The notes below the pieces were generated by a model. It saw nothing but the letters and a program-made list of their open reading frames with translations, had not been told where the DNA came from and did no database searches. From Prosopocoilus inquinatus (lineage: Eukaryota > Arthropoda > Insecta > Coleoptera > Lucanidae): a stretch of DNA of 64,000 bases. A program made the translations under genes and the position numbers. The stretch is taken from assembly GCA_036172665.1 (NCBI GenBank), contig CM069875.1:13658001-13722000 (forward strand). The letters run 5' to 3'. Of this stretch, positions 20,561 through 59,149 are shown one piece after another. Every line of letters starts with the position of its first letter. Positions within the stretch are counted from its first letter, which is position 1.

Positions 20561-23500
20561 CTATTCATCAGGGGGATCTGGTTTAAGATGTTCACTATTC
20601 CAGGTGCCAGGAAGTATATTGTCATCAAAATCCTTAAGTTCATACGTGTCTGACGACACACGACGATTAATGAGGAAAGGCCCAACAAACTTATCGGCCA
20701 ACTTGGCCGCGAAATGCTTAGAAGCATCCGACAATACAAAATTTTTACGCCAAACCCGTTGTTCAGGGTGATACTCAACCTTACGCCTACGGAGATCATA
20801 ACGGCCTTTAGCCTTCTCGTAAGCCTTTTGCAGCCTTCCTTGTACGTCCTTATATAGCACGGCAAACTTACCGGTACGAGATTGTAGATCCTTAGGATCC
20901 TGAGGGACAACTTCCAGAGACACATTCTTATCAGGGGTACTATCAGGGGTTAGACTACCTTTTAGGCACATCTCACGACCAAAATTGAGGAAGTATGGAG
21001 TCACACCAGTAACTTCATGACGAGCGGTTCGAAGAGCACAGGCGACCTTGGGCAAGAATAGATCCCATTTGCGGTGGTCTTCCGCCACATAAGCAGTCAA
21101 CATAGACTTAATAACGCGGTTAACGCGTTCGACAGGGTTCGCCTTAGGATGATAATACGAAGTGTACGCAGGGCGTACATGGTATGACGTCAGAAGTTTT
21201 TGATACTCTTTGGACTTGAATTGGACTCCATTATCGGAAATAATGGCGCGAGGTACACCGAAAACTAAGAAAATATTTTCCTCAATGTGCTGCACAATCT
21301 TTGGGGCGGTAGCTTTACGAAGAGGAAAACACAGGGTAAATTTACTAAAACAGTCAGTAGCCACTAGGATATATTGGTAACCACGAGAAAATCTAGGGAG
21401 TGGTCCAACAAGATCGATACTGATGACCTCCCAAGGACGAGTAATCTTGGAGTGACCTCCCATCATACCAGCTGGAGCCCTTTGTTCAGGTTTGGTACGG
21501 ATACACGTCTGGCAACGGTGGACATACTTTGCCACATCGGCATGCATCTTAGGCCAATAGTAATTTTGAGCGATTCTATTATACGTCTTATAAATTCCTA
21601 GATGACCACTGGTTGGAGAGTCATGACTTTCTTGAAGTATTTTTGACCGAGAATCCTTTGGGACAACAGTCTTCCAATGAGGTTCATCCTTAGCCAAACG
21701 ATAATATGTGTTTCGGACCAGTTTATAAATGACATTTCCCTCGACACGGAAACTAGGAAACTTTTCCGGAGTCAAACGAATTTTCTTAAGGAAATTCCAG
21801 TACCAACTGTCCTGAACGTTGTCAAAATCGATGGAGTCGATAACAGGGACGGTTCGAGAAAGCATATCAGGAACAACGTGATCTTTTCCTTTGCGATGGA
21901 TGACGCTAAAGTTATATTGTTGTAGGCGCACAGCCCAACGACACAATCGACCGGAAGGATTCTGCAACTTATTAAGCCAAAGGAGAGAGTGATGGTCTGT
22001 GATGACCTTAAAGTGCGAACCTTCTACATAAGGCCGAAGTTTTTCTATGGCCCACAACATCGCAAGGAGTTCCTTTTCGGTTGTTGAAAAGTTACGCTCG
22101 GTTCGAGTCAACGAGCGGCTTAGATAGCAGATGACTTTCTCACCTTCGTCTTGTTCTTGGGTAAGGACAGCACCTAGACCATAATCGGATGCGTCCGTTT
22201 GCATCGTAAATTCTTTGGTGAAGTCGGGACATGAGAGAACTGGAGCAGAAACTAAGTGCTCACGAATTTTTTCCCAAGCTTCATCACAAGTCTCATCCCA
22301 CCTATGCTTAGAATTTTTCTTAAGCAAGTTTGTCAAAGGGGCGATAATAGTGGAAAATCCAGGGATAAACCTCCGATACCAAGAAGCAGTTCCTATCAAA
22401 CGGCGAACTTCCTTAACCGTAGTTGGCTTAGGCATCTTAAGAATTGATTGTACCTTTTCAGGGTCAACATGAAGACCATGACGATCCACTACATACCCTA
22501 GGTACTTGAGTTCGCTAAGACAAAAATTGCATTTTTCTTCGTTCAAGGTTAGTCCGGCCTTGGTCAGGCGTTTATGGACTTCGGAGAGTACTTCGAGATG
22601 TTTGTCGAAGGTTTGAGTCACAATAATGATGTCGTCTAAATAGACGAACACATGTGGTTCAAGATCAGCACCGATTACACAGTCGATAAATCTTTGCCAA
22701 GTTGCAGGAGAATTATGAAGACCAAAAGGCATTCTGCGAAATTGATACAAACCGCGGTTAGGTACGGTAAAAGCGGTGTATTGGCGGGATTCTTCGGCAA
22801 CCGGAATTTGCCAGTATGCTGACTTGATATCTAAGGAAGATAGATACTTAGCATCTTTGAGTTTATCAAGGGTGTTCGAGACATAAGGTAGAGGATAAGC
22901 ATCCTTGGTCGTAACTTGGTTGAGCTTCCGATAGTCCACACAAAAGCGGAAAGAACCATCCTTTTTGGGTACAAGAAGAATGGGCGATGACCAAGCACTC
23001 TTAGATTTCTCAACAATTCCACGCTTAATCATGTCGTCAAGTTCTGTATCGACGATGGCTTGTCTTGCTGGCGAAATCGGGTAATATCGTTGTTTGATTG
23101 GTGGGCTATCAGTACGGATGACGTGTTCGACCAATTGGGTACATCCTAGTTCACGGTTTCTGGAATCAGCAAACAGCTGTTCGGTCCGTTCATTAAGTTG
23201 GGTCTGTTGATCATTTGTCAGATGACCCCAAGATGTGACATGTTCGACTGAGTCAATGAATTCCTTTCCAAAACTCCACTCACCGGAGCGCAAGTCAGGG
23301 ACGATGCCCATCAACTTCCAAAAATCTGCGCCGAGAATTAAGGAATGCGGCAACTCAGGAACGACAAGAACGTCGATCACTTTGACACGGTCACGAAGTT
23401 GGATAGGGGTGGTAACATTACCAGGACTACTACAGGGTTGTCCATTCGCAACAGTGCATGACGTCACATGTTTCGTAAAAGGTAAGTTTAAAGTCTGAAG

Positions 23501-23749
23501 GATTTCCCATCCTGAACTGCCAACAATTGTGCGAGACGCACCTGAATCAAGGAGGCCAAGAAATGGGATGCCTAAGATGGATACAGACAGATATGGGCGT
23601 TCGTCATCTTTTGCATGAGCTAGGACAAAGTCTAAAACAGGTTGTACAGTCAGAGATTCGATCGGATTTGTTACTTTAAAGCAACGCACTAGCCGGTCAT
23701 CTAACGCGTTGTTCGGGAGTTTTTTGGACTCTTCGAGCACACGGGGCAC
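20561..23749 (-). CDS. pol: Pol polyprotein: protease-RT-RNase H-integrase
   Basis: 1062-codon uninterrupted frame, overlapping gag by 49 nt in the -1 frame, so Pol is probably made by -1 ribosomal frameshifting; the Met at 23749 is simply the first in the frame. Domains in order: aspartic protease with D-S-G-A at residues 68-71; RT with V-D-Y-R-K-L-N, D-I-K-S-A-Y-W-Q and active site Y370-L-D-D; RNase H with T-D-A-S, E-K-E-L and T-D-H-H-S-L; integrase with an H-H-C-C zinc domain (G-H-L-G..., C-x2-C), catalytic D of I-S-I-D-L-V-G-P (~779), D of I-I-S-D-N-G (~838) and E of N-P-V-E-R-V-N-R (~873); then a G-P-F module and no chromodomain. All catalytic residues are present. Ty3/gypsy by domain order; the clade is not fixed. 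Confidence 0.95.
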   Translation of the reverse strand: MPRVLEESKKLPNNALDDRLVRCFKVTNPIESLTVQPVLDFVLAHAKDDERPYLSVSILGIPFLGLLDSGASRTIVGSSGWEILQTLNLPFTKHVTSCTVANGQPCSSPGNVTTPIQLRDRVKVIDVLVVPELPHSLILGADFWKLMGIVPDLRSGEWSFGKEFIDSVEHVTSWGHLTNDQQTQLNERTEQLFADSRNRELGCTQLVEHVIRTDSPPIKQRYYPISPARQAIVDTELDDMIKRGIVEKSKSAWSSPILLVPKKDGSFRFCVDYRKLNQVTTKDAYPLPYVSNTLDKLKDAKYLSSLDIKSAYWQIPVAEESRQYTAFTVPNRGLYQFRRMPFGLHNSPATWQRFIDCVIGADLEPHVFVYLDDIIIVTQTFDKHLEVLSEVHKRLTKAGLTLNEEKCNFCLSELKYLGYVVDRHGLHVDPEKVQSILKMPKPTTVKEVRRLIGTASWYRRFIPGFSTIIAPLTNLLKKNSKHRWDETCDEAWEKIREHLVSAPVLSCPDFTKEFTMQTDASDYGLGAVLTQEQDEGEKVICYLSRSLTRTERNFSTTEKELLAMLWAIEKLRPYVEGSHFKVITDHHSLLWLNKLQNPSGRLCRWAVRLQQYNFSVIHRKGKDHVVPDMLSRTVPVIDSIDFDNVQDSWYWNFLKKIRLTPEKFPSFRVEGNVIYKLVRNTYYRLAKDEPHWKTVVPKDSRSKILQESHDSPTSGHLGIYKTYNRIAQNYYWPKMHADVAKYVHRCQTCIRTKPEQRAPAGMMGGHSKITRPWEVISIDLVGPLPRFSRGYQYILVATDCFSKFTLCFPLRKATAPKIVQHIEENIFLVFGVPRAIISDNGVQFKSKEYQKLLTSYHVRPAYTSYYHPKANPVERVNRVIKSMLTAYVAEDHRKWDLFLPKVACALRTARHEVTGVTPYFLNFGREMCLKGSLTPDSTPDKNVSLEVVPQDPKDLQSRTGKFAVLYKDVQGRLQKAYEKAKGRYDLRRRKVEYHPEQRVWRKNFVLSDASKHFAAKLADKFVGPFLINRRVSSDTYELKDFDDNILPGTWNSEHLKPDPPDE

Positions 23750-25110
23750 GTCTTAGTGGTGACATTGGGACGTCCACATTGATAACAATGCCTACGTAAG
23801 GGTTCAGAGCAATCACGGGATAGGTGGCCTGTCTTTTGACAATTCCAGCACTTAAACGTTTTGGTAGGTTTAGGAGGATCTACCTTACACTCACTTACGG
23901 TTGGTGCGCAGGCTTGTACATAGGCTAGGTCAGGCTCTAGAGTATTGTTCTTACGAGGTGGAGGCATGTATGCCTCTACGGCGGACTTACGAACCTCTAA
24001 TTGTCTACCTATCTTCAATAACTGGGTGACAGAAGTAACCTCGACTAGTCCTAACTGACGCTGATAAAAAGGGGCAATGTTATTCAGAAGAATTTTTATG
24101 CGAACGTTTTCCGCGACAGGGATGCTCAAACGATCGAATAAATTGAGCATGACAGAAATATAAATTCCCATTGATTCATCGGGACCCTGGGTGCGTTTCT
24201 TTATTTCTTCAAATAACTTGTCGTAATTATGGGGTTGGAACTCGTCACGAAGACCTTGCACGAGTTCGGACCAATTATTGCAAAATTTCCGATTTGCCCG
24301 AAACCAGATTAAAGCTTTATCGCGAAATAAATCGGACGCTGAAGCGAACAGAGTTGCTTCCGAAACGTTTCTCGAAATTTGGAGTTCACTAACGCATTCC
24401 AAAAAGGCGCTAAGGGAGAGAATCTTATTATTCCCATTATAAGTTAAACCCCATTTAGAAACAGGAACCGATTTAATTTCGATCGCGGTTACAGGGTGTG
24501 TCGTAACCTTGGGCGCAAGAAGAACAGCTTTAGGCGGGGACGTCGTAATTTTTGGCGACGAAGTCGCACTAGGAGTTACAACAACATTCGGATTGACACA
24601 AATCATGGATGATTGATCATTTCGGAAATGATCCGCAACAGCCGTTAAATCAAGTAAGGGAGACGCATGAGTCCTAACAACTTCAGTTTCTTTAGGACTG
24701 AAATTTAACGTCGTCTGTTCAAAGTCAAACGCGAGTTCATTTAACGTCTGTAAAATGCACTTACGTTGTTGTACTTCGTCGTTTGTCAAAGGCTGAGAAC
24801 GCTGTGCGCGTCCGATGGTGTGAGCCAATTTGGCTGAAATTTTGTTTACAATGCAAACAGCGGTCGAGCCAGGGACAGACTCAATTAAACAGCGAATTTC
24901 GCTAATCTTTTCCTGAAGGGCAGTCACGTCTTCGTCAAATAATACGTCATATTTGGGTAAGGGTAAGCGCAAATCTTTTTCCAAACGCAATTGTCGTCTG
25001 AGGTACGCTCGTTTTTGCGCAACAGTACCGTCACATTGTACACCTCTCGCTAAGAGTTCATAGTTAATCTCTTCCGCATTAAGGCGATCGGGTAACAATT
25101 TAAAATCCAT
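23701..25110 (-). CDS. gag: Gag with CCHC zinc knuckle
   Basis: Forms the virus-like particle and packages RNA. I chose the ATG at 25110-25108 (M-D-F-K-L-L-P-D): the frame is open back to 25218 but that part lies in the primer-binding site. This gives 469 residues. The N-terminal third is helical, the middle holds the capsid-like part with W-F-R-A-N-R near the centre, and the C-terminus has a nucleocapsid knuckle C-W-N-C-Q-K-T-G-H-L-S-R-D-C (C-x2-C-x4-H-x4-C). A second cysteine cluster follows (C-Y-Q-C ... C-P-V-C) that lacks the normal His spacing. The leader from LTR to ATG is only ~110 nt. The stop lies 49 nt into the pol frame. Confidence 0.93.
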   Translation of the reverse strand: MDFKLLPDRLNAEEINYELLARGVQCDGTVAQKRAYLRRQLRLEKDLRLPLPKYDVLFDEDVTALQEKISEIRCLIESVPGSTAVCIVNKISAKLAHTIGRAQRSQPLTNDEVQQRKCILQTLNELAFDFEQTTLNFSPKETEVVRTHASPLLDLTAVADHFRNDQSSMICVNPNVVVTPSATSSPKITTSPPKAVLLAPKVTTHPVTAIEIKSVPVSKWGLTYNGNNKILSLSAFLECVSELQISRNVSEATLFASASDLFRDKALIWFRANRKFCNNWSELVQGLRDEFQPHNYDKLFEEIKKRTQGPDESMGIYISVMLNLFDRLSIPVAENVRIKILLNNIAPFYQRQLGLVEVTSVTQLLKIGRQLEVRKSAVEAYMPPPRKNNTLEPDLAYVQACAPTVSECKVDPPKPTKTFKCWNCQKTGHLSRDCSEPLRRHCYQCGRPNVTTKTCPVCSKSPKNSRTTR

Positions 25111-25197
25111 GTCAAGGCGCAAAATTCCGCAATAAAACAAACAATTCTGTCTAACTTGGACGTAATTTTTCGGAAAACAAAACGCAAAACAAATTGA

Positions 25198-25217
25198 GGC
25201 CCCACAATTGGGCGCCA
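25198..25217 (-). other. primer-binding site, tRNA-Lys type
   Basis: Five bases inside the 5' LTR the element strand reads TGGCGCCCAATTGTGGGGCC. The insect tRNA-Lys(CTT) 3' end would call for TGGCGCCCAACGTGGGG, so only two positions differ. Confidence 0.8.
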
Positions 25218-25222
25218 AATCT

Positions 25223-29581: not shown

Positions 29582-30583
29582 TGTAAACAGGCGAAATTTC
29601 TAGCATGAATTATTTTCCTTCGAATATCATGTAGCGTATTAACTTTATTTTTTTTTTATTTCTGCATAAAGAAATTTGAGTACCAGAATCAAAATTTTAT
29701 TAAACTCCAAATGAGCATGCAGTCATAACATCCTTTCTAGATAACGGTTTATTTAGCTGACTGGCATGAGAAAATCCGCGTGATTGAGCGTGTGAAACGC
29801 GGGGGAGTTCTTAAAACAAACCTCCCGGCGAAAAGGAGGAGGAAGGTAATTACTGCTTAAGACAGTCGTCATTCGGTCCTAAATTAAGTCAGACGTGGTT
29901 TTGATCAAAATTGTGAATGTAAATGTAACTTCGGAAAATTAAGAGTTTTGGTGGGTGAAAAGTGAGGTGGTAGAAGCCCCCGAAAGGAGAGCGAGCCCCT
30001 GTCATCAACGTTCCGGAAAATAAAAGAAAGAGGATCTCTATTGCAGCGTCTCCCTGCTTAACAGGTAGGAAAATGATAGTTGTTCAGTGTTAATTCGTAC
30101 CATTTGGTTTGGAGGAAAATCCTCCTAGTTCCGACATTTTTTTCCCTTTATTCTTTAATTATGATTTGTCTTGTTTTTATTTGTAAATTTAAGGTGTCGA
30201 ATATATTCCTTTTTCATACCTTCAAGGGACTTTTATTTCATTTTGGTGTCGTAATCAATTAATCATTTCTTTTTTTAATTTTTTTATTAAAATTGTATAT
30301 AAAACTCGTACAGTTCTAGAGTCAAGAACTAACGCTTCCGACTTTAATGCCAAGGGAAAGAGAGCCCCATTAATTACGTGAGGGTAAAAATTTCAATTGC
30401 TTTAATTAATATTATTATATTCTTTATTTTGGGCCCGATGCCCCGTGAGCCATTAATGAATGCATCGGTGGTGGCAGCGCAATAATCATTCATAGAAATT
30501 TTCTTTAATTTTTTTTTGTATTAAAAATTTAATCCCTCATTTAATATAACTCGGCTCCTTTACCCAGAAAGGCCACGCCTACA
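29582..30583 (+). repeat. 5' LTR of macrodomain gypsy element
   Basis: Begins TGTAAACAGG and ends CGCCTACA. Contains an initiator-like GTACAGTTCTAGAGTCAAG region after a TATAAAACTCG box (near 30297), which may be the core promoter. Confidence 0.93.
30297..30304 (+). promoter_or_regulatory. TATA-like box in LTR
   Basis: TATATAAAACTCG at about 30295-30307, repeated in the 3' LTR near 41806-41818, is the best candidate core promoter for element RNA. Judged by motif only. Confidence 0.35.
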
Positions 30584-31674
30584 AAATGGTGCCAGCGGTG
30601 TGGGATTAATTATTTGCTTATAAAATGTTGGCAGCGCTGTGTGAAATTTCTGTTAATTAAAAGTAATTTGTATTTTTTTTTTGTTTTCCGTTCGAAATTC
30701 ATTCAAATAGACCTAGAATGAGTACGAGTATTTTGTGTATTTCTTTTCCAGGTAGTGTATTAAATAAACTACGGTAAAAACTAAATAAAGCCCTCATCAT
30801 AATAATTGTTTTGAGAAACCCCTATAGCGGAAGGCAAACGCGTAATCGCGGAGTGTAACGTGCGATCGTAGACGTACACAGTACGATTCAGACAGCGCCA
30901 TCTTGGTAGCTGCCTAACGTCGCGACGGCGACCGGAACGCACGGGAATTCGACCGACGCTCGTATGCAGCAGGCGTCGCATCTAAGGCGCGTACAAACCA
31001 AACGACGTATAATAGGAGTTAGATTAAAAGTAAATTAGAAATTCAAATTGTTTTTCGTTAATTTAAATATTTTTTTTTCTATACGCAAAGTATTTTCCAA
31101 TCATTTTTTTTTTCTTGCAAACATTTTTTTTTAAATTCACCTTAATAATTTTTTTAAAATTAATAACATAACTTGATTAATTCATAAAGTACAGTCTCCT
31201 TTATTTATTTATTTATTTATTTTTTTTAACTGTACGCCAACGCTATATAAATAAATCAAACCACAACGTTGTTTTATTATTTATTGCGAACCTTGAAGTT
31301 TTCGTGTTTTCTTGCGCGATTGAATTATTTTCGCTGACGGAAGATTGCCTTTTAGCCTTGTTTTTTTAAATTAATTAATTAATTTTTTTTTTCTCATTTA
31401 CTAAATGGGGTATTCATAAAGTCAATTAAATTCTTTTGTTGTTCTCTCTCATATAGTTTGTTTTCATTTTTTTTTTAGAATTACTTATAAAAAGTTAGTT
31501 TTCTTTTTGTTACTACTTTCATTTAAATTCACTTTCAATTAAAGGGCTAATTTAAACTAAACTTATAAAATAAACGTGAAATTAGTGAGTTTAGTGAAAT
31601 AATGGTTAAAGGTGAACCTGGAAAATCAGTTATTTTTATTTTATTATTTTTAACAAAGAGTGAGGTATTTAAAA
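30584..31674 (+). other. 1.1-kb untranslated leader
   Basis: T-rich with no ORF in element sense. It may hold packaging signals; a TTTTCCAGGTAGTG near 30745 looks splice-site-like. Confidence 0.5.
30587..30607 (+). other. primer-binding site, probably tRNA-Leu type
   Basis: TGGTGCCAGCGG-TGTGGGATT starts 3 nt after the LTR. It resembles the complement of a tRNA-Leu 3' end (TGGCAGCGGTGGGATT) with small insertions; the assignment is tentative. Confidence 0.5.
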
Positions 31675-33075
31675 ATGGCAGAAGTAGAATACGATTTTGT
31701 GGACGCAAATGATAATACTTTAGAAGCAAATATTCTCCCCGTGGATGATGTTAACAATGCAATAACACAACCACCCTCAATGAATATAGCAAGTTTGCGA
31801 ACGATTGGGCAAACCCTTGTTGGCCTCCCCGAATTTTCTGGAAAACCTGGTGAAAATATAAAAGAATTTTTCCTGAAATTACGTCAACGAGCGGACATAG
31901 ATGCGTGGACGGAGCAACAAACCCTAGCTGTCGCAAGATATCAGCTAAAAGGAGAAGCTTTCCAATACTTGGAATTGGAATCACATTTATTATCATCGAA
32001 TGTGACATACGCTGATTTTAAAGCTGCCTTGATAAAACGATACGAAAAGAAGGTTTTACCGGGTGAAGCTTATTTGAAACTCCAACGATGCACGCAAGCC
32101 GCTCGCGAAAGGGTTGAAGATTTTTCCATCAGAGTAAAGAGAGCAGGCAAGAAACTTCTAGAAGAAAACCTGGCCCTGGTGGAGTCAAATCAGCCAGCTC
32201 AACGAGACGCCGTGATAAAAAGACATCAGCGAGACCTGGCTGAACAATTCAAAAGAGGATTGGACCCGGAATTACTGAAGATGATCATCCTGGATCTGAA
32301 CCGGAATCCTCGTCGGTCGTTTGAAGAAGTGATCGAACTTGCCCAACAAGCAGAGACGAGTGGGAGAATGTTAAAACAGATGAACAGATTGAACAACCTC
32401 TACGTCACAAATCGGAACATGAACCTCTCGGAAGAAGATGATGAAGAAGAGTACGGTTACGAGGAGATTCGAAGCTCTCAAAGGAACTATCCACCTCAAT
32501 ACCACGAGAACACTCGTTGGGTCAAGAAACCAACCGGCTACTCAGAACATTGGAACAATAGATTTCCTACTGGGGAAAATTTCGCCGAAACACAAAACGA
32601 AAGACCCAGGAAAGTAACATTCGCAAGGGACTATGCTCAGGTCATGACGAGTAAAGATAGTTTCCCTCTAAATCATCAATCGGGTACTAAGTACCAGAAA
32701 GGATATCCAAGGGCGTACGGAGAAACTCCAACCCCGCAATATCCTAGAACTTATCCGAGGATAAACGAAGGAAATTCAGCCTCGCAGTATTCCAGAACAT
32801 ATCCAAGGAAATATGGGGAAAATCAAACACGGAACTTTCGTGAGAAAAGACCTGACGCTTACCCGAGGAACGACCAGCAACACCAAAGGAATTTTAGGAA
32901 ACAAGTGAAATGTTTCAGGTGTTCGAGGATGGGACATTATGCATCCGAATGTAAAGTATCGGTTAAACAACCGGGGATGTTAAGAGTAGGGAGCCAGACT
33001 AATAATACGAAGTCTTTAAACTACAGAGGTCCTTTGCAGAACCCCGAGGTCAAAGGACCTTACCGAAGAAATTAA
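31675..33075 (+). CDS. gag: Gag with CCHC zinc knuckle
   Basis: 466 residues from the ATG at 31675 (M-A-E-V-E-Y-D-F); the frame is open slightly upstream but without an ATG. Residues ~45-230 form a helical capsid-like region typical of Ty3/gypsy Gag (L-V-G-L-P-E-F-S-G-K ... F-K-A-A-L-I-K-R-Y). The C-terminal third is basic and has a loose Y-P-R-x-Y-G-E repeat, which would suit RNA binding. A single knuckle C-F-R-C-S-R-M-G-H-Y-A-S-E-C lies near residue 412. It ends at TAA 33073-33075. Pol follows in the -1 frame and is open across the gag end, so -1 frameshifting is the likely route to Gag-Pol. Confidence 0.93.
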   Translation: MAEVEYDFVDANDNTLEANILPVDDVNNAITQPPSMNIASLRTIGQTLVGLPEFSGKPGENIKEFFLKLRQRADIDAWTEQQTLAVARYQLKGEAFQYLELESHLLSSNVTYADFKAALIKRYEKKVLPGEAYLKLQRCTQAARERVEDFSIRVKRAGKKLLEENLALVESNQPAQRDAVIKRHQRDLAEQFKRGLDPELLKMIILDLNRNPRRSFEEVIELAQQAETSGRMLKQMNRLNNLYVTNRNMNLSEEDDEEEYGYEEIRSSQRNYPPQYHENTRWVKKPTGYSEHWNNRFPTGENFAETQNERPRKVTFARDYAQVMTSKDSFPLNHQSGTKYQKGYPRAYGETPTPQYPRTYPRINEGNSASQYSRTYPRKYGENQTRNFREKRPDAYPRNDQQHQRNFRKQVKCFRCSRMGHYASECKVSVKQPGMLRVGSQTNNTKSLNYRGPLQNPEVKGPYRRN

Positions 33076-33161
33076 AAATTACGCTCCCACACGCATATAC
33101 GGTCGAAGAGGAAGGAAATAAATGTATCATCCTACCGAAAGTATTTGGTCACACAGCTACA

Positions 33162-36017
33162 ATGCTAGTGGATACTGGAGCCTCTTTGACCATATTAAAA
33201 GAAGAGTTTGTTCGGAGGATCGGGGCCCGAACTAAACCAGAACCACACGTTGTTTTCCGCGGAATTTCAGGAGACGAAGAGCCATGTTTGGGATCAATTG
33301 TGTTACCACTCCGGATAGGAAACAGGAACTACGATACCAAGTGCATGATATGGTCGAACTCAGTAAACCTGAATATGGATGGCCTTCTTGGTAGAGATTT
33401 TCTTCGAGCCAACAGCGCATCAGTCGACTATGGGGAAAATGTCCTCAGACTCGGAAAGGAAAAGGTGAAGCTCTTAAGTTATGATGATCTGAACGATCAG
33501 AATTATGACGATGCTTACTCTCTACGTCAAGAAAATGGCTGGGAATCCAACCGCAGAAGAAAGCAGGCTAACTTCCGAGAACCGGACCGAAACGGATTTA
33601 CAAAATCCAAGAGATCAACAGGATCTGAAAACCGGAATAAAGGAATGAAGCCGAAAAGCAACGGAATAACCGAACTGGGCAGGTGTGAGGAAAGACGCAA
33701 TCAAATATGGTTTCACCACAGACGAAATACAATTCCGAGAAGAAATACAGAAATAGCAGAGCCCAGTTATAGCGGTGTAGTGCGGAACGGAAAAGGAAGA
33801 TCCTTGAAGAAGGAAAATTTTGAATTAGTGAAGGAAAGTAGAGAACCGCGTAGTAAGGAAATAATTTCCATAAAAATGGAAAAGAAGAATGCCGAAATAA
33901 ATGAAGTCTGTGGGGATTTGTTTTCAGCTCCAGAAGAATACTCTTTGGCCCATTGTGTAGCAAAAGATCTCCACATGAGCAAAGGGATCGCGGTAGAATT
34001 CAAACAAAGATTTGGACGCGTGGAAGCTTTAAAGAAACAAAACACTCAAGTTGGCGGAGTAGCAGTCTTGAGGGACAACTTGCTCCGAGGAAAGCACAGA
34101 TTCATTTACTACCTTGTGACGAAAAATCAAAGTCAAGATAAACCTACCTATGAATCCTTAGAAAAGGCAATAGTAAGTCTACGGGATCACTGTCTACAGC
34201 ACAGAATCCAAAAGTTAGCAATGCCAAGGATAGGATGCGGGTTGGACGGACTTAATTGGGAAGAAGTCATAAGGATTATAAGAAGAGTGTTTGCCGAAAC
34301 CGGAATAAGCATCTTAGTTTATGCTCTGGTAATAGATAATGGTCGGCAAGAAAACACTAGAAACAGGCACGTCAAGGAAGGTACAAATGAAGTACAGATT
34401 GAAAGTGCTGAAAGGAAGCAAATGACACACCACCGTAAAGAAGTGGAAGAAGTACATAGAAGTGGAGGTAAAGATAGAAAAGTAATAAAGAAGGAGACTC
34501 TAGAGGAAGATCGCAAGTCGTCACCGTCACCACCAATGATGGATGATGACCAGGATGAAGCAGTTGGTGGCTGCCAAGTCCGAATTAAAAATGCGACCGA
34601 CATTCCTCCAAGATGTCAAATGTTGTGTACTGCTGTGCAGGGAATGATCAACCCTGGACAGGATTTAATGCTGGAACCCGCTCAGTTACTCATCCATGGA
34701 CTTATAGTAGCGCGTACTGTTTCCAAGGCCGGACGTGAAGTACCCGTTTGCATAATGAATGTCACCAATGAAAGGCTGAGAATACCGAAGAACACGGTAG
34801 TAGCCTACGGTGAGAGGGTAGATGTGTCTGAAAACCCAGGAAGGGAAAGGAAGAAAAGAATCCCCATAAATAAGGTAGACCTGAGGAAAGCCGGAATCCT
34901 AGAAAAATTGGAAATGGAACATCTGAGTAATGAAGAGAAAAATAAATTAATAAAACTAGTTCAAGAATACGGCGACATTTTTATGGGAAAAAATGTGAAT
35001 TTAGGATGCACGCACGAGGTGAAGCACAAGATTATTACAGAAGATGTGCCACCTATAACCAAAGCGCCCTACAGAGTGCCATACAGTCAGCGGAAGGAGC
35101 TCCAGAACCAGATCGGAGAAATGATAGAACAAGGAGTGATTAAAGAGTCCTCCTCTCCTTGGAGTGCGCCGGTAATTATGGTAAGGAAGAAAGCCGCAGA
35201 AGGTGAGAATAAAATTCGCGTTTGTATAGACTACAGGGCACTGAATTCCATCACCAAGCGAGACTATTTCCCATTACCGAACCTCCAGGAGGCTATCGAT
35301 CAACTAGGGAATGCAAAGTTCTTTTCCACGTTGGATCTGGCAAGCGGATATTGGCAAGTGGAAGTGGACCCGAAGGATAGGGAGAAAACAGGATTTTCAA
35401 CTCCCGATGGTCACTATGAATGCCTAAGAATGCCGTTTGGACTGGCAAATGCTCCAAGCACCTTTCAAAGATTGATGTATTCAGTGATGTCGGGATTGAC
35501 CGGGGACAAATGTTTGGTATACCTCGACGACATCATCGTGTTTAGCAAAACACTAAATGAGCATTTGGAAAGGTTGACCGAAGAGTTCGAAAGGCTCAGG
35601 AAAGCCAATTTAAAGTTGAAGCCGTCAAAGTGTAGGTTTTTAGCCAGAGAAGCTAAATATCTGGGACATGTTATATCTCAACAGGGAGTGAAACCGGACC
35701 CCGAGAAATTAAGTGTTGTGAAAAATTACCCACGACCAAGAACCGTGAAGGACATCAGAGCTTTCTTAGGATTAGTAGGATTTTACAGGAAGTTTATCCC
35801 AGAGTTCTCGCACAAGGCAATCCCCTTGACGTCGCTCACAAAGAAGGATGTTGAGTTGGTATGGACTCAGGAGCAGGAGGACGCATTTGAATACCTCAAA
35901 GAAAGGTTATGCAACCCACCAGTCCCGAAATACCCTAATTTTGAGGAACCGTTCATACTAGCTACTTTCTGGAACAGCTATCGGCGCAGTGCTAAGTCAG
36001 AAGGAAGGAACGTATGA
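33162..36017 (+). CDS. pol: Pol part 1: protease, macrodomain, RT (frame-broken)
   Basis: 951-codon frame; 33162 is the first ATG but the frame is open upstream through the gag stop. Protease: V-D-T-G-A-S with Asp4. Residues ~240-390 (about 33870-34335) form a TARG1/OARD1-type macrodomain: I-N-E-V-C-G-D-L-F, S-L-A-H-C-V-A-K-D, M-S-K-G-I-A-V-E-F, Y-Y-L-V-T-K-N (Lys321) and M-P-R-I-G-C-G-L-D-G (Asp362). In TARG1 the equivalent Lys and Asp do the ADP-ribosyl hydrolysis. RT: S-P-W-S-A-P-V, C-I-D-Y-R-A-L-N, D-L-A-S-G-Y-W-Q and Y787-L-D-D, then thumb/connection F-L-G-L-V-G-F-Y-R-K-F-I. The frame leaves Pol near 35967, where a few bases are missing at the start of RNase H, including its first catalytic Asp; the last ~17 codons are out of frame. 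Hence this copy of Pol is defective though all upstream motifs are intact. Confidence 0.92.
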   Translation: MLVDTGASLTILKEEFVRRIGARTKPEPHVVFRGISGDEEPCLGSIVLPLRIGNRNYDTKCMIWSNSVNLNMDGLLGRDFLRANSASVDYGENVLRLGKEKVKLLSYDDLNDQNYDDAYSLRQENGWESNRRRKQANFREPDRNGFTKSKRSTGSENRNKGMKPKSNGITELGRCEERRNQIWFHHRRNTIPRRNTEIAEPSYSGVVRNGKGRSLKKENFELVKESREPRSKEIISIKMEKKNAEINEVCGDLFSAPEEYSLAHCVAKDLHMSKGIAVEFKQRFGRVEALKKQNTQVGGVAVLRDNLLRGKHRFIYYLVTKNQSQDKPTYESLEKAIVSLRDHCLQHRIQKLAMPRIGCGLDGLNWEEVIRIIRRVFAETGISILVYALVIDNGRQENTRNRHVKEGTNEVQIESAERKQMTHHRKEVEEVHRSGGKDRKVIKKETLEEDRKSSPSPPMMDDDQDEAVGGCQVRIKNATDIPPRCQMLCTAVQGMINPGQDLMLEPAQLLIHGLIVARTVSKAGREVPVCIMNVTNERLRIPKNTVVAYGERVDVSENPGRERKKRIPINKVDLRKAGILEKLEMEHLSNEEKNKLIKLVQEYGDIFMGKNVNLGCTHEVKHKIITEDVPPITKAPYRVPYSQRKELQNQIGEMIEQGVIKESSSPWSAPVIMVRKKAAEGENKIRVCIDYRALNSITKRDYFPLPNLQEAIDQLGNAKFFSTLDLASGYWQVEVDPKDREKTGFSTPDGHYECLRMPFGLANAPSTFQRLMYSVMSGLTGDKCLVYLDDIIVFSKTLNEHLERLTEEFERLRKANLKLKPSKCRFLAREAKYLGHVISQQGVKPDPEKLSVVKNYPRPRTVKDIRAFLGLVGFYRKFIPEFSHKAIPLTSLTKKDVELVWTQEQEDAFEYLKERLCNPPVPKYPNFEEPFILATFWNSYRRSAKSEGRNV

Positions 36018-38745
36018 AAGACCCATAGCGTACGCCAGCCGGCAACTCAACAAAGCCGAGCGAAATTACGACGTGACTCAACAAGAATGTTTAGCAGTTG
36101 TTTGGGCTATCAAACATTTTAGATGTTATCTCTACGGGACTAAGTTCACCATCTATACGGACCACAGACCGTTAAAGTGGTTGTTCTCACTAAAGGACCC
36201 GACATCGAGATTAGCCCGATGGGCTCTACTCTTGTCAGAGTACGACTTTACAATAGAGTATAAGCCAGGAAAAAAGAACAACAATGCTGATGCTATGAGT
36301 CGATTGCCTATGGTAGAAAGACCTTCACAGGAACCGGAGATTTGTATAAATCAGGTCCGAGGTTTAAGGCCGATGAAGAGGAAAGGAATAACTAACCTTC
36401 ATACATTGAGCGAAGCTGTAAAAAGAGAACGTCAACAAATACGACAGGAAATCAACGAAGTTGACGAGATCACCAAATATGGAAGCGAAGGAAGAAAATC
36501 TCGTACAACATTCCCAAAAGAAGTTATGGAGAAAGAACCAAAGTATGGACAAAGTAAGGTTCGGAATCAATATGACGAAAACTGGAACCCCAGCTACGGA
36601 GAAAGAAACATAGCAGTCCCAGTTGATGTTCAAGTGGAAGTGAATACACGTAATGAAGAGCTCAGCGATGACGAGCCGGGGGACCGAAAATATGAAAGGA
36701 CATTCTCTCAGTTAGATAGAGAAAAGGTACAAGGTTACGAAGAATTCCAAAGATGGGCAGAAGAGAAAAGGAAAGATGATCGAATGAAAATCATACCATC
36801 ACACGAAACGAATCCCAAGACAGAAGGAGACAGGCAAGAAATTGTAACACACCCGATTTCCAGAAGAAACCGGATTGGAACAGAAGTTACGCCCGTACCA
36901 TACCTAGACAAGAAGGTGATAGCCGACGAACAAGGGAAGGATCCAGTTCTCAAGATTGTGCACCGACAAATTCTGGAAGAACAAAAAGACGATCCTTATT
37001 ATATCGACGACGATGGTGCTATTTTCCGTGTAAGACGCGGAAATGAAAGGAATGACCGGATTGTCATCCCGAAGAACTTGGTACGACAGTCTATACGTGA
37101 CTACCACGATTTGCCGTACGCAGGACACCAAGGCGTACCGAAAACACTAAAATTGCTACAAGGGCGGATGTACTGGAAGGGAATGGAAGAGGACATTAAG
37201 GATTACATCCAAAAATGTCACTCTTGTAATGCGCGAAAAACACCTACCAACCGAAAACCAGCACCCTTGCAGCCGTTTTGCGAAGTGTCGTACCCGTTCG
37301 AGTTGACAGCAATGGACATAGTAGGACCGCTAGTTACCACAGATCAAGGCAACAAATACATATTGACCTTTCAGGATTATTTTACTAAGTATCCGGAAGC
37401 GATACCTCTACCGGATCAGAAAGCGGACACCGTAGCACGAGCATTTGTGGAAAACATCGTCGCCAGACACGGAGTTCCAAGGAAGTTGCTTACCGATCAA
37501 GGTACCAACTTCGTATCGGAACTTATGAAGAACGTGTGTAAAATCCTAGGAATTAAAAAGATCCAGACAACTCCATACCACCCCCAGAGTAATGGAATGA
37601 TAGAACGAACACATCGAGTTCTGAAAGATATGCTGTCTCACTACGTTACGAAATCGCAACGGGATTGGTATAAGTGGATTCCTTATGTGTTAATGGCCTA
37701 CAGAGCCAGCATCCACTCTTCTATTGGAGAGACACCATATTTTCTGCTTCATGGAAGGGACATGAGACTGCCTAATGACGACGATCTTACTTCTACCAGA
37801 CAACGATACGACTACAGTGAAAACTACGCTGCAGAATTGGTAGCGAGGTTGAACTCAACCTTTGAAGTCGTACGAGAAAAACTCAAGAAATCAGCAGGAC
37901 AGCGGGAGAAACAGTACAATAAAAAGACAAAACCCACCGAATTCAAACTCGGGGATAAAGTCTACTTGTACAACCCAGCGGTAAAACCCGGTCTGTCGAG
38001 AAAACTGAGTAAACAGTGGGAAGGACCGTATCGAATAATCGAAAGGTTAGGTCCTGTAACGTACAAGATCGCCAGAATAGGGAAGGACGAAGAACAAACA
38101 GTCCATGTCAATAGGTTTAAATGGTATGAAGATGGAGACGAGATTCGAAATGTACCCCAACCTCAAGGACATAAAGAGGATGCACCAGATCAAGAAGATT
38201 CAGACAATCCAGAGTCAAAGACGGAGTCTGAGGAAGACTTAATGGTTCCCGGAAACTTTGAAGAGTTGGAGAGAGCATATTTTGGTGGAGTACCAGCGCC
38301 GTTTCCGCAGGAAAATGTAAACGCTCCAGAAGAAGTGGAACCATGGATTGGAACACCGGTGTCAATGAGGGACGAACCCCAAGCACCTCGTGTAGTAAAC
38401 TTCAATCCTAATGTACTGAACGAAATTCCCGAAGACTACCAAATACAAAATGAAGAACCACCCGAATTGGTGGAAGAAGATAGTTTCGAAGAGGAGGATG
38501 AAACGGAGAACGAAGATTCGGCAGAAGTTCAGGAAAATCAAGGACAAACCCCAGAAAGCGATAATGTCAAAGGAACAGCTGGAAGTAGCGGACATCGCTA
38601 TGACACAAGAAGTAAAGGACCTGCAGAATTACAGCCATGGGTCATGCCGAAAACATTAATGGTAAATAGCGGATACCCTGAAGTAAAGAAAAGCTTCAAA
38701 CCACACATAAATGATCAAAATTTAGATGAAATCACTTTGGCATAA
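35989..38745 (+). CDS. pol: Pol part 2: RNase H remainder and integrase
   Basis: 918-codon continuation in the frame one base on. Residues 1-110 are the rest of RNase H (Q-Q-E-C-L-A-V-V-W-A with catalytic Glu; Y-T-D-H-R-P-L-K-W with Asp; N-A-D-A-M-S-R-L). Residues ~110-330 are a highly charged spacer longer than usual. Integrase: H-H-C-C zinc domain (G-H-Q-G-V ... C-H-S-C), catalytic D of A-M-D-I-V-G-P (~443), D of L-T-D-Q-G-T-N-F (~503) and E of N-G-M-I-E-R-T-H (~538), then a G-P-Y-R-I-I-E-R module. The last ~200 residues are acidic (runs of E and D), an unusual tail of unknown role. The ATG at 35989 is internal to RNase H and is not a natural start. Confidence 0.92.
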   Translation: MLSQKEGTYERPIAYASRQLNKAERNYDVTQQECLAVVWAIKHFRCYLYGTKFTIYTDHRPLKWLFSLKDPTSRLARWALLLSEYDFTIEYKPGKKNNNADAMSRLPMVERPSQEPEICINQVRGLRPMKRKGITNLHTLSEAVKRERQQIRQEINEVDEITKYGSEGRKSRTTFPKEVMEKEPKYGQSKVRNQYDENWNPSYGERNIAVPVDVQVEVNTRNEELSDDEPGDRKYERTFSQLDREKVQGYEEFQRWAEEKRKDDRMKIIPSHETNPKTEGDRQEIVTHPISRRNRIGTEVTPVPYLDKKVIADEQGKDPVLKIVHRQILEEQKDDPYYIDDDGAIFRVRRGNERNDRIVIPKNLVRQSIRDYHDLPYAGHQGVPKTLKLLQGRMYWKGMEEDIKDYIQKCHSCNARKTPTNRKPAPLQPFCEVSYPFELTAMDIVGPLVTTDQGNKYILTFQDYFTKYPEAIPLPDQKADTVARAFVENIVARHGVPRKLLTDQGTNFVSELMKNVCKILGIKKIQTTPYHPQSNGMIERTHRVLKDMLSHYVTKSQRDWYKWIPYVLMAYRASIHSSIGETPYFLLHGRDMRLPNDDDLTSTRQRYDYSENYAAELVARLNSTFEVVREKLKKSAGQREKQYNKKTKPTEFKLGDKVYLYNPAVKPGLSRKLSKQWEGPYRIIERLGPVTYKIARIGKDEEQTVHVNRFKWYEDGDEIRNVPQPQGHKEDAPDQEDSDNPESKTESEEDLMVPGNFEELERAYFGGVPAPFPQENVNAPEEVEPWIGTPVSMRDEPQAPRVVNFNPNVLNEIPEDYQIQNEEPPELVEEDSFEEEDETENEDSAEVQENQGQTPESDNVKGTAGSSGHRYDTRSKGPAELQPWVMPKTLMVNSGYPEVKKSFKPHINDQNLDEITLA

Positions 38746-39668
38746 TGTGTAGTTTTTTTTTTTTTTTTTTAATTTTCACCCTTTTTATCTCTTATCCAAC
38801 CCCTACAGTCCTTTATCTAGGAGAATGATAGACACAACTAAAAATGTTTTGATTTGTTATGCAAAATTTCAAAATTTTGAGAAGAACTATGTGTTCTTGA
38901 TTCATTTGGGTTTTAGGGTGTTCGATTAAATATTTAAGATGAAGATCAATGATTTAATCTAAAAATTTATCAAAATTTAAGGGATGATTGATTCTTTTTG
39001 TATTTAAACATTTTTTTTTACAGTTCATTTTGTTATTAAAAGGGAGTTTAGCTTCCTAAAGTTAATTGTAACGGAGAATTCCATTATTTATTTAATTTTG
39101 TTTTGGGTTTTCAAAATTTAAAAAGGGATTAGAAATTCTTTTTCTAGTGATGTCTTACTTTTCTTTGTGCCACTTTTCCGTAATGGATAATAATTCAGTT
39201 GGGATACATAAAAATAAAATAACGGGGAGCTCCATTACTAAAGTTTGTTTCTTAAGTGAAATCTTAGAATTTGAGGAGGAAATATTTTGATCTATCTTAT
39301 TTCATTATTTTATTTGAGTAATGACTGTACTTTCGGTTTGTCAAAAGTTTACACGTACCAGAAATGGATTGGTAATTTTGAATAGATCCGTTTATTTTAA
39401 AACTTGGCCGACAAAGTACATTCTTCCTTTCTTAAGCGTGGCTTGAAAGAGTAAGAAAGGATGTCAGGCCCCTTGAGTAGTATGTAGAATAGAAATATGA
39501 AGAATGTTAGGGAATTATGTGATCCCATTTAAAAAAAAAAAAAAACCTCAAAGAAGTTCTCGTAAACGTATTTATAGGGCGAAAGAAAGAATAAGAGTAC
39601 AGAAGCATTTACCGCGAGCAAAAATTTACTTTATCAACGAACATGCATTAGGCAGACGAAGAAAATAA
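38746..39668 (+). other. non-coding gap between pol and KH ORF
   Basis: Starts with a long T run (38753-38770) and has no ORF on the element strand; contains an A run near 39530. The distance from the promoter suggests the downstream ORF needs a spliced or subgenomic RNA. A CATTAGGCAG acceptor-like motif lies just before it (near 39643-39652). Confidence 0.45.
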
Positions 39669-40247
39669 ATGGTTGATAATTCGTATGTTAAAGGAGAAGC
39701 CAGAGACACCATGCAGAAAACAGAAGAGGCTTGCGCACGGATTCTTCTCACTCGCCATCAAGTAAAAGAAGTTGTAGGAAACGGAGGTGTCCGTATCGCA
39801 GCCATAAGAAACAAGTCGAAAGCTAGAATCTACATTTGTTCTCAAATGGAGGAAGAAGAACTTCGACTCCTACAGATCAAGGGAACCGTACTACAAGTAG
39901 AACGGGCAGTGAAAAGCCTCTTGAAGGAGCTATATAAACACTCATTGGAGACCCTGTACGAAATGGACGAGAGTGGTGTCCGAATCCGGTCTAGAGTGTC
40001 CCTACGGCTCCTGCTCCTTGAAGAAATAACAAAGCGATGGGAAGGACCCCCATGTGTCATCAAACCCCTTCTGAAAAGTAGAGAAGTATCGTGGAAGGAA
40101 GAAGGTGTCTTCCCAAATTCTACGGAACAGGCAATTTATATTGCCGGTGACTGGGCAAAAGTTGCTGAGGCCATCCAACAAACCCTCGCGACCCACCGTG
40201 TATGCCGGCGCTTTGTCAAAGACCCAGTACTCCTTTACGTCCCATAA
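39669..40247 (+). CDS. accessory ORF with KH RNA-binding domain
   Basis: 192 residues from ATG 39669; an in-frame TAA directly upstream fixes the frame limit. Residues ~22-88 fit a type I KH fold: A-R-I-L-L-T, then the V-V-G-N-G-G-V-R-I nucleic-acid-binding loop (Gly37-x-x-Gly40, I43), I-R-N-K-S-K-A-R-I-Y-I, and L-L-Q-I-K-G-T-V-L-Q-V-E-R-A-V. KH domains bind single-stranded RNA or DNA. A second, degenerate KH-like unit may occupy residues ~104-178 (A-I-Y-I-A-G-D-W-A-K-V-A-E-A-I) but lacks the GxxG loop. There is no signal peptide or membrane segment, so it is not an env. It sits in the env position of the retroelement, between pol and the 3' LTR. Its role is inferred: binding element RNA or host transcripts. 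The frame is intact in a young element, which argues it is used. Confidence 0.8.
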   Translation: MVDNSYVKGEARDTMQKTEEACARILLTRHQVKEVVGNGGVRIAAIRNKSKARIYICSQMEEEELRLLQIKGTVLQVERAVKSLLKELYKHSLETLYEMDESGVRIRSRVSLRLLLLEEITKRWEGPPCVIKPLLKSREVSWKEEGVFPNSTEQAIYIAGDWAKVAEAIQQTLATHRVCRRFVKDPVLLYVP

Positions 40248-41073
40248 AAAGAATTAGCCAGATGCACTAAGAACAAACATCGAACCTGATGTTCGCCTGA
40301 AGCATGTCGTACGAAATTATAATTACATATTTTCTTATGTCAATTTTTTTTTTGTTTATTTTTCTTTCTTTGTTATATTCATTAACCGAAATTTTGATTG
40401 TACTATAATAGAGATACTATTATTCTTTCCTCGCATAAACTTTAGTTTAAATACCTTTTATTTCACTGTTTTTATTATATTGTAATCTAAGAATCTGATA
40501 CTCGTTTTTTTTGTTATATGTAATCTTTGACATGGAGACAACCTGACATGAGGCAACCTCCACACACAACCATGAGCCAGCCAGTAAGCACCAAAAGGTC
40601 CTGAGTCGTTAGTTACGTGATCCGGAAGAGTAGGCGGTTGTTGAACCGACCCACCTCAACATGGACACAAACTATCTCATTCGAACCGATCAAGACGGTG
40701 TTACTGAAAGGCACCGCCCTGCACAAAGGAAACCAGACCTTCATCACATGTCTCAGGAAGGACTGACCTAGTCATCCAGGAGGATATTTGTAGAAGAAAG
40801 GACGTGACGACATGGTGCCCGGCCGAATAAGCTCACATTATCGAAAGGAAGCTGGAGTCTCGAACAATTGGTGAAACGTTATACCATGAATAATTATTGT
40901 GTTGTGTCTTATGCCATTTTGCCTCATGACATTTATTTATTTTTTTTATACATTTGTTCTATGTTAATTAATTTCAAATTGTGTAATTAATTTATTTTTA
41001 TGATTGTAAGGGACCCTGTAACAGAGACCTCTGCTAATTCAAAAGGTATTGACCTCGGGTCAACACTTTTACT
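40248..41073 (+). other. 3' untranslated part of gypsy element
   Basis: No ORF. Contains a G/A- and C/A-rich block (40540-40870) unlike the T-rich flanks. Ends at the polypurine tract. Confidence 0.45.
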
Positions 41074-41086
41074 AAAGGGGAAGGGA
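41074..41086 (+). other. polypurine tract
   Basis: AAAGGGGAAGGGA immediately before the 3' LTR primes plus-strand DNA synthesis in this class of element. Confidence 0.85.
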
Positions 41087-42091
41087 TGTAAACAGGCGAA
41101 ATTTCTAGCATGAATTATTTTCCTTCGAATATCATGTAGCGTATTAACTTTATTTTTTTTTTATTTCTGCATAAAGAAATTTGAGTACCAGAATCAAAAT
41201 TTTATTAAACTCCAAATGAGCATGCAGTCATAACATCCTTTCTAGATAACGGTTTATTTAGCTGACTGGCATGAGAAAATCCGCGTGATTGAGCGTGTGA
41301 AACGCGGGGGAGTTCTTAAAACAAACCTCCCGGCGAAAAGGAGGAGGAAGGTAATTACTGCTTAAGACAGTCGTCATTCGGTCCTAAATTAAGTCAGACG
41401 TGGTTTTGATCAAAATTGTGAATGTAAATGTAACTTCGGAAAATTAAGAGTTTTGGTGGGTGAAAAGTGAGGTGGTAGAAGCCCCCGAAAGGAGAGCGAG
41501 CCCCTGTCATCAACGTTCCGGAAAATAAAAGAAAGAGGATCTCTATTGCAGCGTCTCCCTGCTTAACAGGTAGGAAAATGATAGTTGTTCAGTGTTAATT
41601 CGTACCATTTGGTTTGGAGGAAAATCCTCAAAGTAGTTCCGACATTTTTTTCCCTTTATTCTTTAATTATGATTTGTCTTGTTTTTATTTGTAAATTTAA
41701 GGTGTCGAATATATTCCTTTTTCATACCTTCAAGGGACTTTTATTTCATTTTGGTGTCGTAATCAATTAATCATTTCTTTTTTTAATTTTTTTATTAAAA
41801 TTGTATATAAAACTCGTACAGTTCTAGAGTCAAGAACTAACGCTTCCGACTTTAATGCCAAGGGAAAGAGAGCCCCATTAATTACGTGAGGGTAAAAATT
41901 TCAATTGCTTTAATTAATATTATTATATTCTTTATTTTGGGCCCGATGCCCCGTGAGCCATTAATGAATGCATCGGTGGTGGCAGCGCAATAATCATTCA
42001 TAGAAATTTTCTTTAATTTTTTTTTGTATTAAAAATTTAATCCCTCATTTAATATAACTCGGCTCCTTTACCTAGAAAGGCCGCGCCTACA
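41087..42091 (+). repeat. 3' LTR of macrodomain gypsy element
   Basis: Nearly identical partner of 29582-30583. Internal short open frames are chance. Confidence 0.93.
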
Positions 42092-58213: not shown

Positions 58214-59149
58214 ATGCCTTACATTAAGAAAGTGGACGCTGATGCCATGAAGAAACAAATCTGTGTCCTATATAATAACAACCAAGATTGGAGAACACTA
58301 GCGAATACCTTAAGAGTGAAAAAATCAACCGCGTACCGTTGGGTGAAAAACCAGGAAGAACCTGAAAACACACGTGGTGGAAAATAATCTCATGGAACAA
58401 TACATCGAAGAGAAATGAAAGAGAAGTTTCAAATTGAACACCAACTTGTTGTCTCGACAGAATGCCTTGGAAGACATTTGGATGGTTTGATGTATACTTT
58501 AAAAAATGTGAGAAAAGAACCTGAAAGGGCAAATAGTGCGGATAACAAAACCAAAAGATGTGAATTTGTTCCACAGCTATTAGATTATCAAGCAGATAAT
58601 ATTCCAACAGTTTACATGGACGAAACTAATTTTAATTTATACACTTCACGTACAGGAAGATCTAAGAAAGGCACGCGCCGCACTCATATTTCTGCAGGGA
58701 GTAGAGGGTCAAATATTCATGTTATCGGATGTATTGGAAACATGGGCCTAATACATTACGAAATTAGAAGAGGGGCATTTAAAAAACCGCAAGCTAATGA
58801 TTTCATTTGTCGATGCCTCCAAAATGCCCGAAATTTGTATCAAACACCTGTCGTTATGGTCATCGATAATGCTCGGTGCCATTCTTCAATTGAGGATGTT
58901 TTTAGGGAGGGCGAATTTGCCGATAATTATTTGCTAAGACTTTCCCCTTACAGCCCGATGTTGAATCAAATTGAACTCGCGTGGTCTTGTCTAAAAGCTG
59001 GTGTTAAAGCTGACTTAGCAATACAAATGCCACAAGTTTTAGCAGGTGTAGCCAGGGCAAACATTGCGCAAACGGAATATCGGCTACAAAAATTAGAAAA
59101 TATAGTGCAACAAAATATAACGAATAAAATTACCGAACAGATAAAATAG
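58214..59149 (+). pseudogene. IS630-like DDE transposase with one stop
   Basis: The ATG at 58214 opens an HTH domain (M-P-Y-I-K-K ... V-K-K-S-T-A-Y-R-W-V). A single in-frame TAA at 58385-58387 separates it from the catalytic part, which continues in the same frame from 58415. Catalytic motifs: V-Y-M-D-E-T-N-F (D1), M-V-I-D-N-A-R-C-H-S-S (D2), L-S-P-Y-S-P-M-L-N-Q-I-E-L-A-W (E), with 35 residues between D2 and E. The TAG at 59147-59149 is not the native stop: it lies inside the inserted hammerhead retroposon. The native frame resumes after the insertion and runs to a TGA at 59567-59569. Function of the family: cut-and-paste at TA. One stop plus one insertion is all that breaks it, so inactivation is fairly recent. 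Confidence 0.85.

Follow-up and report, generated by a model that had tools for sequence, protein, structure and literature searches.

We report a long terminal repeat (LTR) retrotransposon of the Ty3/gypsy type that carries a macrodomain of the cellular TARG1/OARD1 type inside its Pol polyprotein. The element spans positions 29582-42091 of a 64,000-nucleotide stretch of the beetle Prosopocoilus inquinatus (contig CM069875.1, positions 13,658,001 to 13,722,000, forward strand; hereafter the window), which sits on contig C7 of a ~650 Mb assembly (G000). The sequence establishes that the domain is present, that its fold is predicted and its catalytic dyad conserved, that it persists under purifying selection between families, and that a sister element is without it and its linkers. 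Based on sequence comparisons, we propose, with a probability of roughly 0.6, that Pol carries the domain as a packaged eraser of blocking ADP-ribose marks deposited by host PARP enzymes.

The macrodomain motifs named by a first-pass annotation of this DNA were recovered, at the residues it had assigned to them, in the open reading frame (ORF) at 33162-36017. The placement it had described, between protease (PR) and reverse transcriptase (RT), is that of a single ORF with PR at residues 1-82 and RT at residues 676-838. Residues 267-373 match the Pfam Macro profile (PF01661) at 35.5 bits, above its cut-off of 22 (E 1.1e-8), and the suggested TARG1/OARD1 subfamily is upheld by human TARG1 chains that align across the whole domain (33864-34328; E 2e-40 to 1e-39). 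Structure prediction, which the annotation had put forward as a check, likewise places the modeled macro fold of family A, the family of this element, nearest to TARG1 among solved structures; the modeled family F fold is also nearest to TARG1, and the remaining families are assigned by sequence alone. A macrodomain of coronavirus or alphavirus type was rejected, the closest solved folds being TARG1 and then DarG.

The lysine and aspartate reported as retained, Lys321 and Asp362, align with Lys84 and Asp125 of TARG1 (human residue numbering verified), and neither column varies across an alignment of 67 rows, 58 of which were taken into a second alignment. Within the genome, the Lys84 column holds Lys in 48/48 loci and the Asp125 column holds Asp in all 46 loci that reach it. 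Among the database matches listed (124 proteins, 127 domain rows), the rows reaching these columns hold Lys in 121/122 cases and Asp in 123/124, counts drawn, like those of the genome, from rows that are mostly close copies and not independent.

A six-frame search of the genome, addressing the BLAST-type check for other copies, returned at least 151 macrodomain matches at E <=0.001, a lower bound given that 150 of the 1309 first-look candidates were scored. The domain is therefore not the one-off insertion that the annotation had considered: among these matches, nine of the 11 with at least 97% domain identity (window copy counted) retain an open frame of 1914-1916 aa. We read 48 loci, eight from the search itself and 40 picked across the ranking, and gag or pol parts lie beside the domain on the same strand in every one of them. 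The domain lies ahead of RT, toward the protease, in 34 loci and behind integrase (IN) in 14; three of the 34 (L013, L014 and L036) show no RT match and were placed by PR before the domain and the pre-RT linker behind it. Defining families A-G by identity and placement, the domain lies before RT in families A-D and G, and behind integrase in E and F. The expectation of one gypsy Pol family bearing the domain thus describes this element correctly but not the genome, which holds several families with differing placements. An RT tree of 11 rows recovers an A+B+C group and a D+G group (100/100 each), with E, F and the database protein P0009 forming a third (89/94). RNA-binding modules recur near the domain, as a KH ORF in family A and as a CCCH finger in family F.

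Comparison of RT and macrodomain matches, performed by eye on a macrodomain list reaching E ~3e-35 and an RT list with 150 of 3802 candidates scored, yielded 27 RT matches at least 80% identical to the window element. Twenty-five have a macrodomain within ~1.5 kb and the other two (partial, 95%) have one ~4.3 kb away; five RT matches at 65-66% and nine at 57-58% have no macrodomain among the matches listed. L131 (1471 bp), one of the five sisters at 65-66%, has ~60 nt between protease and pre-RT region: its PR match ends at 883 and its linker 2 match, from linker 2 residue 66, begins at 944, with no macro match in between or elsewhere in the sequence (best E 0.33 by tblastn across the full set of domain queries; by profile, the best domain reached 0.84). 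Because this one sister sequence that was read runs from protease into the pre-RT region without a macro match, ~370 residues (linker, macrodomain, linker) appear to have been either acquired by the A/B/C group or deleted from the sister.

The domain persists under purifying selection between families. The dN/dS (nonsynonymous to synonymous substitution) analysis that had been suggested gave, for family A against B, a domain dN of 0.19, dS of 1.47 and ratio of 0.13, with ratios of 0.11 for PR, 0.05 for RT, and 0.42 and 0.23 for the linkers. Pairs within family C have domain ratios of 0.19-0.26 and D-G has 0.17, and closer or degraded pairs yield 0.27 (p 0.018) and 0.31 (p 0.013); synonymous sites are saturated in A against C. 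The dS of domain and linkers is ~3-5x that of RT, and the domain cassette therefore has a deeper history than the adjacent RT. Locus L005 (G000:C1:39144034-39147600) carries an A domain protein-identical to that of the window, while its RT matches family B over 750 nt (0-4% third-position mismatch) and then turns back. Since L005 joins an A macrodomain to a mostly family B RT, we infer that families A and B exchange parts, as by template switching, and such recombination would explain the deeper history of the cassette.

Proteins in databases extend these observations to other genomes. Their architectures comprise PR-RT-RH-IN-macro-CCCH (P0009), RH-IN-macro-CCCH (P0018), PR-RT-RH-macro-IN (P0013) and RH-macro (P0023), where RH denotes RNase H; in P0097, a short protein of Pyrocoelia pectoralis, an integrase C-terminus is joined to the same domain. 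The family F domain query retrieved 147 database proteins at E 1e-10; the best 120 of these include 107 from Aromia moschata, one each from Harmonia axyridis, Diabrotica virgifera and Erysiphe pulchra, and 10 without organism name. We take Aromia, Harmonia, Diabrotica and Pyrocoelia to represent four beetle families. Adding P0009, P0018 and P0097 to the 118 proteins newly found by the family F search gives 121 F-type proteins, in 118 of which, among the matches listed, the domain starts 10-51 aa past the integrase C-terminus; the family F tail, which includes the CCCH finger behind the domain, is matched in 117 proteins of the set, not always at Pfam level. The family A placement was not seen outside this genome in a search whose size limit is exceeded by an intact Pol, so that its absence elsewhere is not implied. 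P0150, from an assembly filed under the name of the fungus Erysiphe pulchra, lies on a 5.4-kb contig and is of the beetle integrase-macro-CCCH type followed by a Gag-like part; it may reflect contamination or transfer. Two cellular-looking proteins, P0017 and P0019, fuse a TARG1 domain to DNA ligase domains or to a domain of uracil-DNA-glycosylase type (precomputed Pfam), which hints at a role of TARG1 in DNA repair.

One tree of the domain excluded proteins with a domain piece <120 aa, and two others were built from hand-chosen rows (47, and 46 in that including the host gene); in the tree with the host gene, which has TARG1-type macrodomains as its only class and a sponge protein as chosen root, the domain nests among animal TARG1 proteins. 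There, the element domains sampled from this genome, together with P0009, P0018 and P0097, fall within an insect TARG1 clade (98/98), outside its beetle (99/97) and fly (96/88) clades; P0013, P0014 and P0023 group on their own (100/99), apart from the insect TARG1 proteins. Approximately unbiased (AU) tests disfavor a single clade for all element domains (p 0.0057 for 15 element rows; p 0.044 for 16 plus the host gene), which makes at least two independent captures likely. Inside the insect-like group, the single-capture grouping has support of 64/83 and 39/76, and one capture followed by relocation and several captures are each compatible with the trees.

The host TARG1-like gene groups with genes of Tenebrio, Tribolium, Asbolus, Callosobruchus and Brassicogethes (99/97), in keeping with a beetle host. 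It has a putative short intron after GIAVNFR, in mid-domain, and intact element copies read straight across this point, the pattern that capture of a messenger RNA would leave. Hence, the proposed capture from a host gene stands as regards origin from a TARG1 gene, given the insect clade and the crossed intron point, but not as regards the present host as donor: recent acquisition from this host's own gene is not supported, the element domains lying outside the beetle clade of that gene. In the host region (L050:5614-9340 with L049), macro exons apparently occur as two sets in tandem; the host gene has a C-terminal extension that is also seen in other beetles as well as in a termite and a locust.

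In the mechanism we favor, the predicted macrodomain would be made as part of Gag-Pol, packaged together with RT and integrase, and would hydrolyze ADP-ribose on Glu/Asp of element proteins or, alternatively, on bases or terminal phosphates of element RNA and cDNA. Its action would undo host PARP marks that otherwise block reverse transcription or integration; the sequence is compatible with marks originating either in defense or in ordinary break signaling. This model builds on known TARG1 chemistry and on host PARP catalytic-domain matches at four places in the genome. TARG1 removes ADP-ribose attached to Glu/Asp or to thymidine in DNA; its K84A form failed rescue tests (PMC8501950).

Several observations weigh against the proposed eraser. 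The Diabrotica protein P0253 has Arg and Glu at the dyad positions, and the column of TARG1 His32 holds Gln in 4 of the 47 own-genome loci that reach it. Families D and F score 16.7 and 19.7 with Pfam Macro, below the 22-bit cut-off, and a Pfam scan of the entire L018 frame lists no Macro. Three close pairs give dN/dS of 0.37, 0.45 and 2.03, without significance, and near-identical A copies have too few changes to reveal selection. The four copies with Gln (L010, L039, L040 and L042) all belong to family B; the histidine is otherwise conserved.

Among alternatives, it is rather improbable that the domain is a reader that steers integrase by binding ADP-ribose at DNA breaks or on chromatin, with hydrolysis secondary. 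Its location behind integrase in families E and F, and at 10-51 aa past the integrase C-terminus in nearly all F-type proteins among the matches listed, accords with such a role, as other Ty3/gypsy elements bear chromodomains in this position; it is at odds with the location before RT in families A-D and G and with an almost invariant dyad whose Asp125 is presumably needed for catalysis rather than binding. We also consider unlikely an eraser aimed at the host, which would act where integration takes place, strip ADP-ribose from histones, PARPs or repair factors and damp break signaling, neither protecting the element's own parts nor answering a defense. That the domain adjoins RT or integrase suits this possibility, but present observations fit erasure of marks on the element equally, and the domain is confined to some gypsy lineages. 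A functionless host fragment carried along as a passive passenger is very improbable: the flanking linkers are indeed weakly constrained (dN/dS 0.23-0.42), but the domain shows 0.13 at a dS of about 1.4, its dyad is conserved across families and species, and it occurs in several RT lineages and placements. An assembly chimera, or a host gene adjoining a retrotransposon, is refuted, as is a single insertion, by same-strand gag/pol parts in 48/48 loci, multiple open copies and the proteins of other species that carry the domain.

Beyond a packaged eraser in this element, a broader and distinctly more doubtful reading holds that TARG1 capture is recurrent in Ty3/gypsy, with at least two captures, three Pol placements and spread among beetles, and that it counters a restriction in which insects ADP-ribosylate the nucleic acids or proteins of the elements; retroelements would then offer a counterpart to viral macrodomains and to DarT/DarG.

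Table 1. Features of the retrotransposon in the window.
Feature	Positions	Strand	Remarks
5' LTR (TG...CA)	29582..30583	+	ATAT target-site duplication just before; repeat comparison
Gag ORF	31660..33075	+	CCHC knuckle, residues 417-432; Ty3 capsid-like match under Pfam cut-off
Aspartyl protease (PF13975/PF13650), Pol residues 1-82	33162..33407	+	Pfam
Linker 1, macrodomain and first part of linker 2, missing in 66%-identical sister	33432..34541	+	Bounds approximate
TARG1/OARD1-type macrodomain	33864..34328	+	Pfam, human TARG1 alignment, fold comparison
Macrodomain dyad codons	Lys321 34122-34124; Asp362 34245-34247	+	
Reverse transcriptase (PF00078), Pol residues 676-838	35187..35675	+	Pfam
RNase H (PF17919/PF17917), interrupted by frame break of this copy	35862..36243	+	Pfam
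Integrase: H2C2, rve core, p58 C-terminal domain	37066..38121	+	Pfam
KH RNA-binding domain ORF, 192 aa, hnRNP K/PCBP2-like, separate, 3' region	39669..40247	+	PF00013, 8e-12
Polypurine tract AAAGGGGAAGGGA	41074..41086	+	Directly before 3' LTR
3' LTR	41087..42091	+	ATAT directly after; LTR comparison

The window element has the domain order PR-RT-RH-IN, paired LTRs, a target-site duplication and a polypurine tract, all characteristic of Ty3/gypsy (Table 1). Its LTRs, of 1002 and 1005 bp, differ by 3 mismatches and 3 gap columns, and the pol frame of this copy is broken near 35989-36017, where RNase H starts. Some gypsy elements carry env where the KH ORF lies here; no env ORF was found after pol, the KH ORF being the sole ORF of at least 150 aa in 38745-41087 (and the sole one of at least 80 aa up to 40500), which speaks against an errantivirus-like element. 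Nine undisrupted full-length copies of the KH ORF occur in the genome at 98-100%, the window one included; a KH type diverged by 43-45% is found elsewhere, and two of its copies occupy the corresponding position next to A copies (L003 and L005). The window also contains a second gypsy element (20561-25218, minus strand) with Gag and Pol and without macrodomain, and a transposase ORF with a DDE_3 domain at 58415-59149.

A TARG1-type eraser kept in several families and several beetle species would imply that ADP-ribose marks matter to the retrotransposon life cycle. It hints that such marks play a part in the conflict of insects with their jumping genes, and it offers a concrete place to seek a restriction of insect mobile DNA through ADP-ribosylation. 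With TARG1 domains joined to RT or integrase, the elements provide a natural set for asking whether protein, DNA or RNA is the natural substrate of TARG1. Reversal of host ADP-ribosylation is what makes viral macrodomains drug targets.

Among known systems, cellular TARG1/OARD1 (C6orf130) is an ADP-ribosylhydrolase with the same fold, ~50% identity to family A and the Lys84/Asp125 dyad; it is a free enzyme, whereas the element version is an intron-less domain within a retrotransposon Pol. Ty3/gypsy elements (Metaviridae) share the LTR-gag-PR-RT-RH-IN-LTR layout, polypurine tract and target-site duplication, and differ from this element in its extra macrodomain and KH ORF. After TARG1, the solved fold nearest to the modeled domain is that of the DarG antitoxin. 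TARG1-like relatives are encoded in 193 stretches of IMG/VR viral contigs; in 80 of the 193 pieces, the genes are stop-to-stop frames of 119-387 aa with no matches to other element parts in their flanks. The macrodomains of alphaviruses, rubella virus and coronaviruses, which have the Macro fold in common with the element domain, are held to counter host ADP-ribosylation (PMC7729036). The statement that no Ty3/gypsy lineage with this domain had been described holds insofar as no description of a macrodomain in a Ty3/gypsy element was found in searches of open-licence full-text literature, but macro domain proteins have been published in teleost endogenous retroviruses (ERVs) (PMC4977317, citing Basta et al. 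2009). These are likewise retroelements with a macro domain; by that review's description, they are vertebrate retroviruses that carry macro domains as additional ORFs. According to PMC4299795, crocodilian ERVs captured KIT ligand and nectin3 from host mRNA and kept them under purifying selection, as here, though the genes are different and apparently not within Pol. Host-domain capture by LTR elements is thus known, and a TARG1-class domain inside Pol appears to be new.
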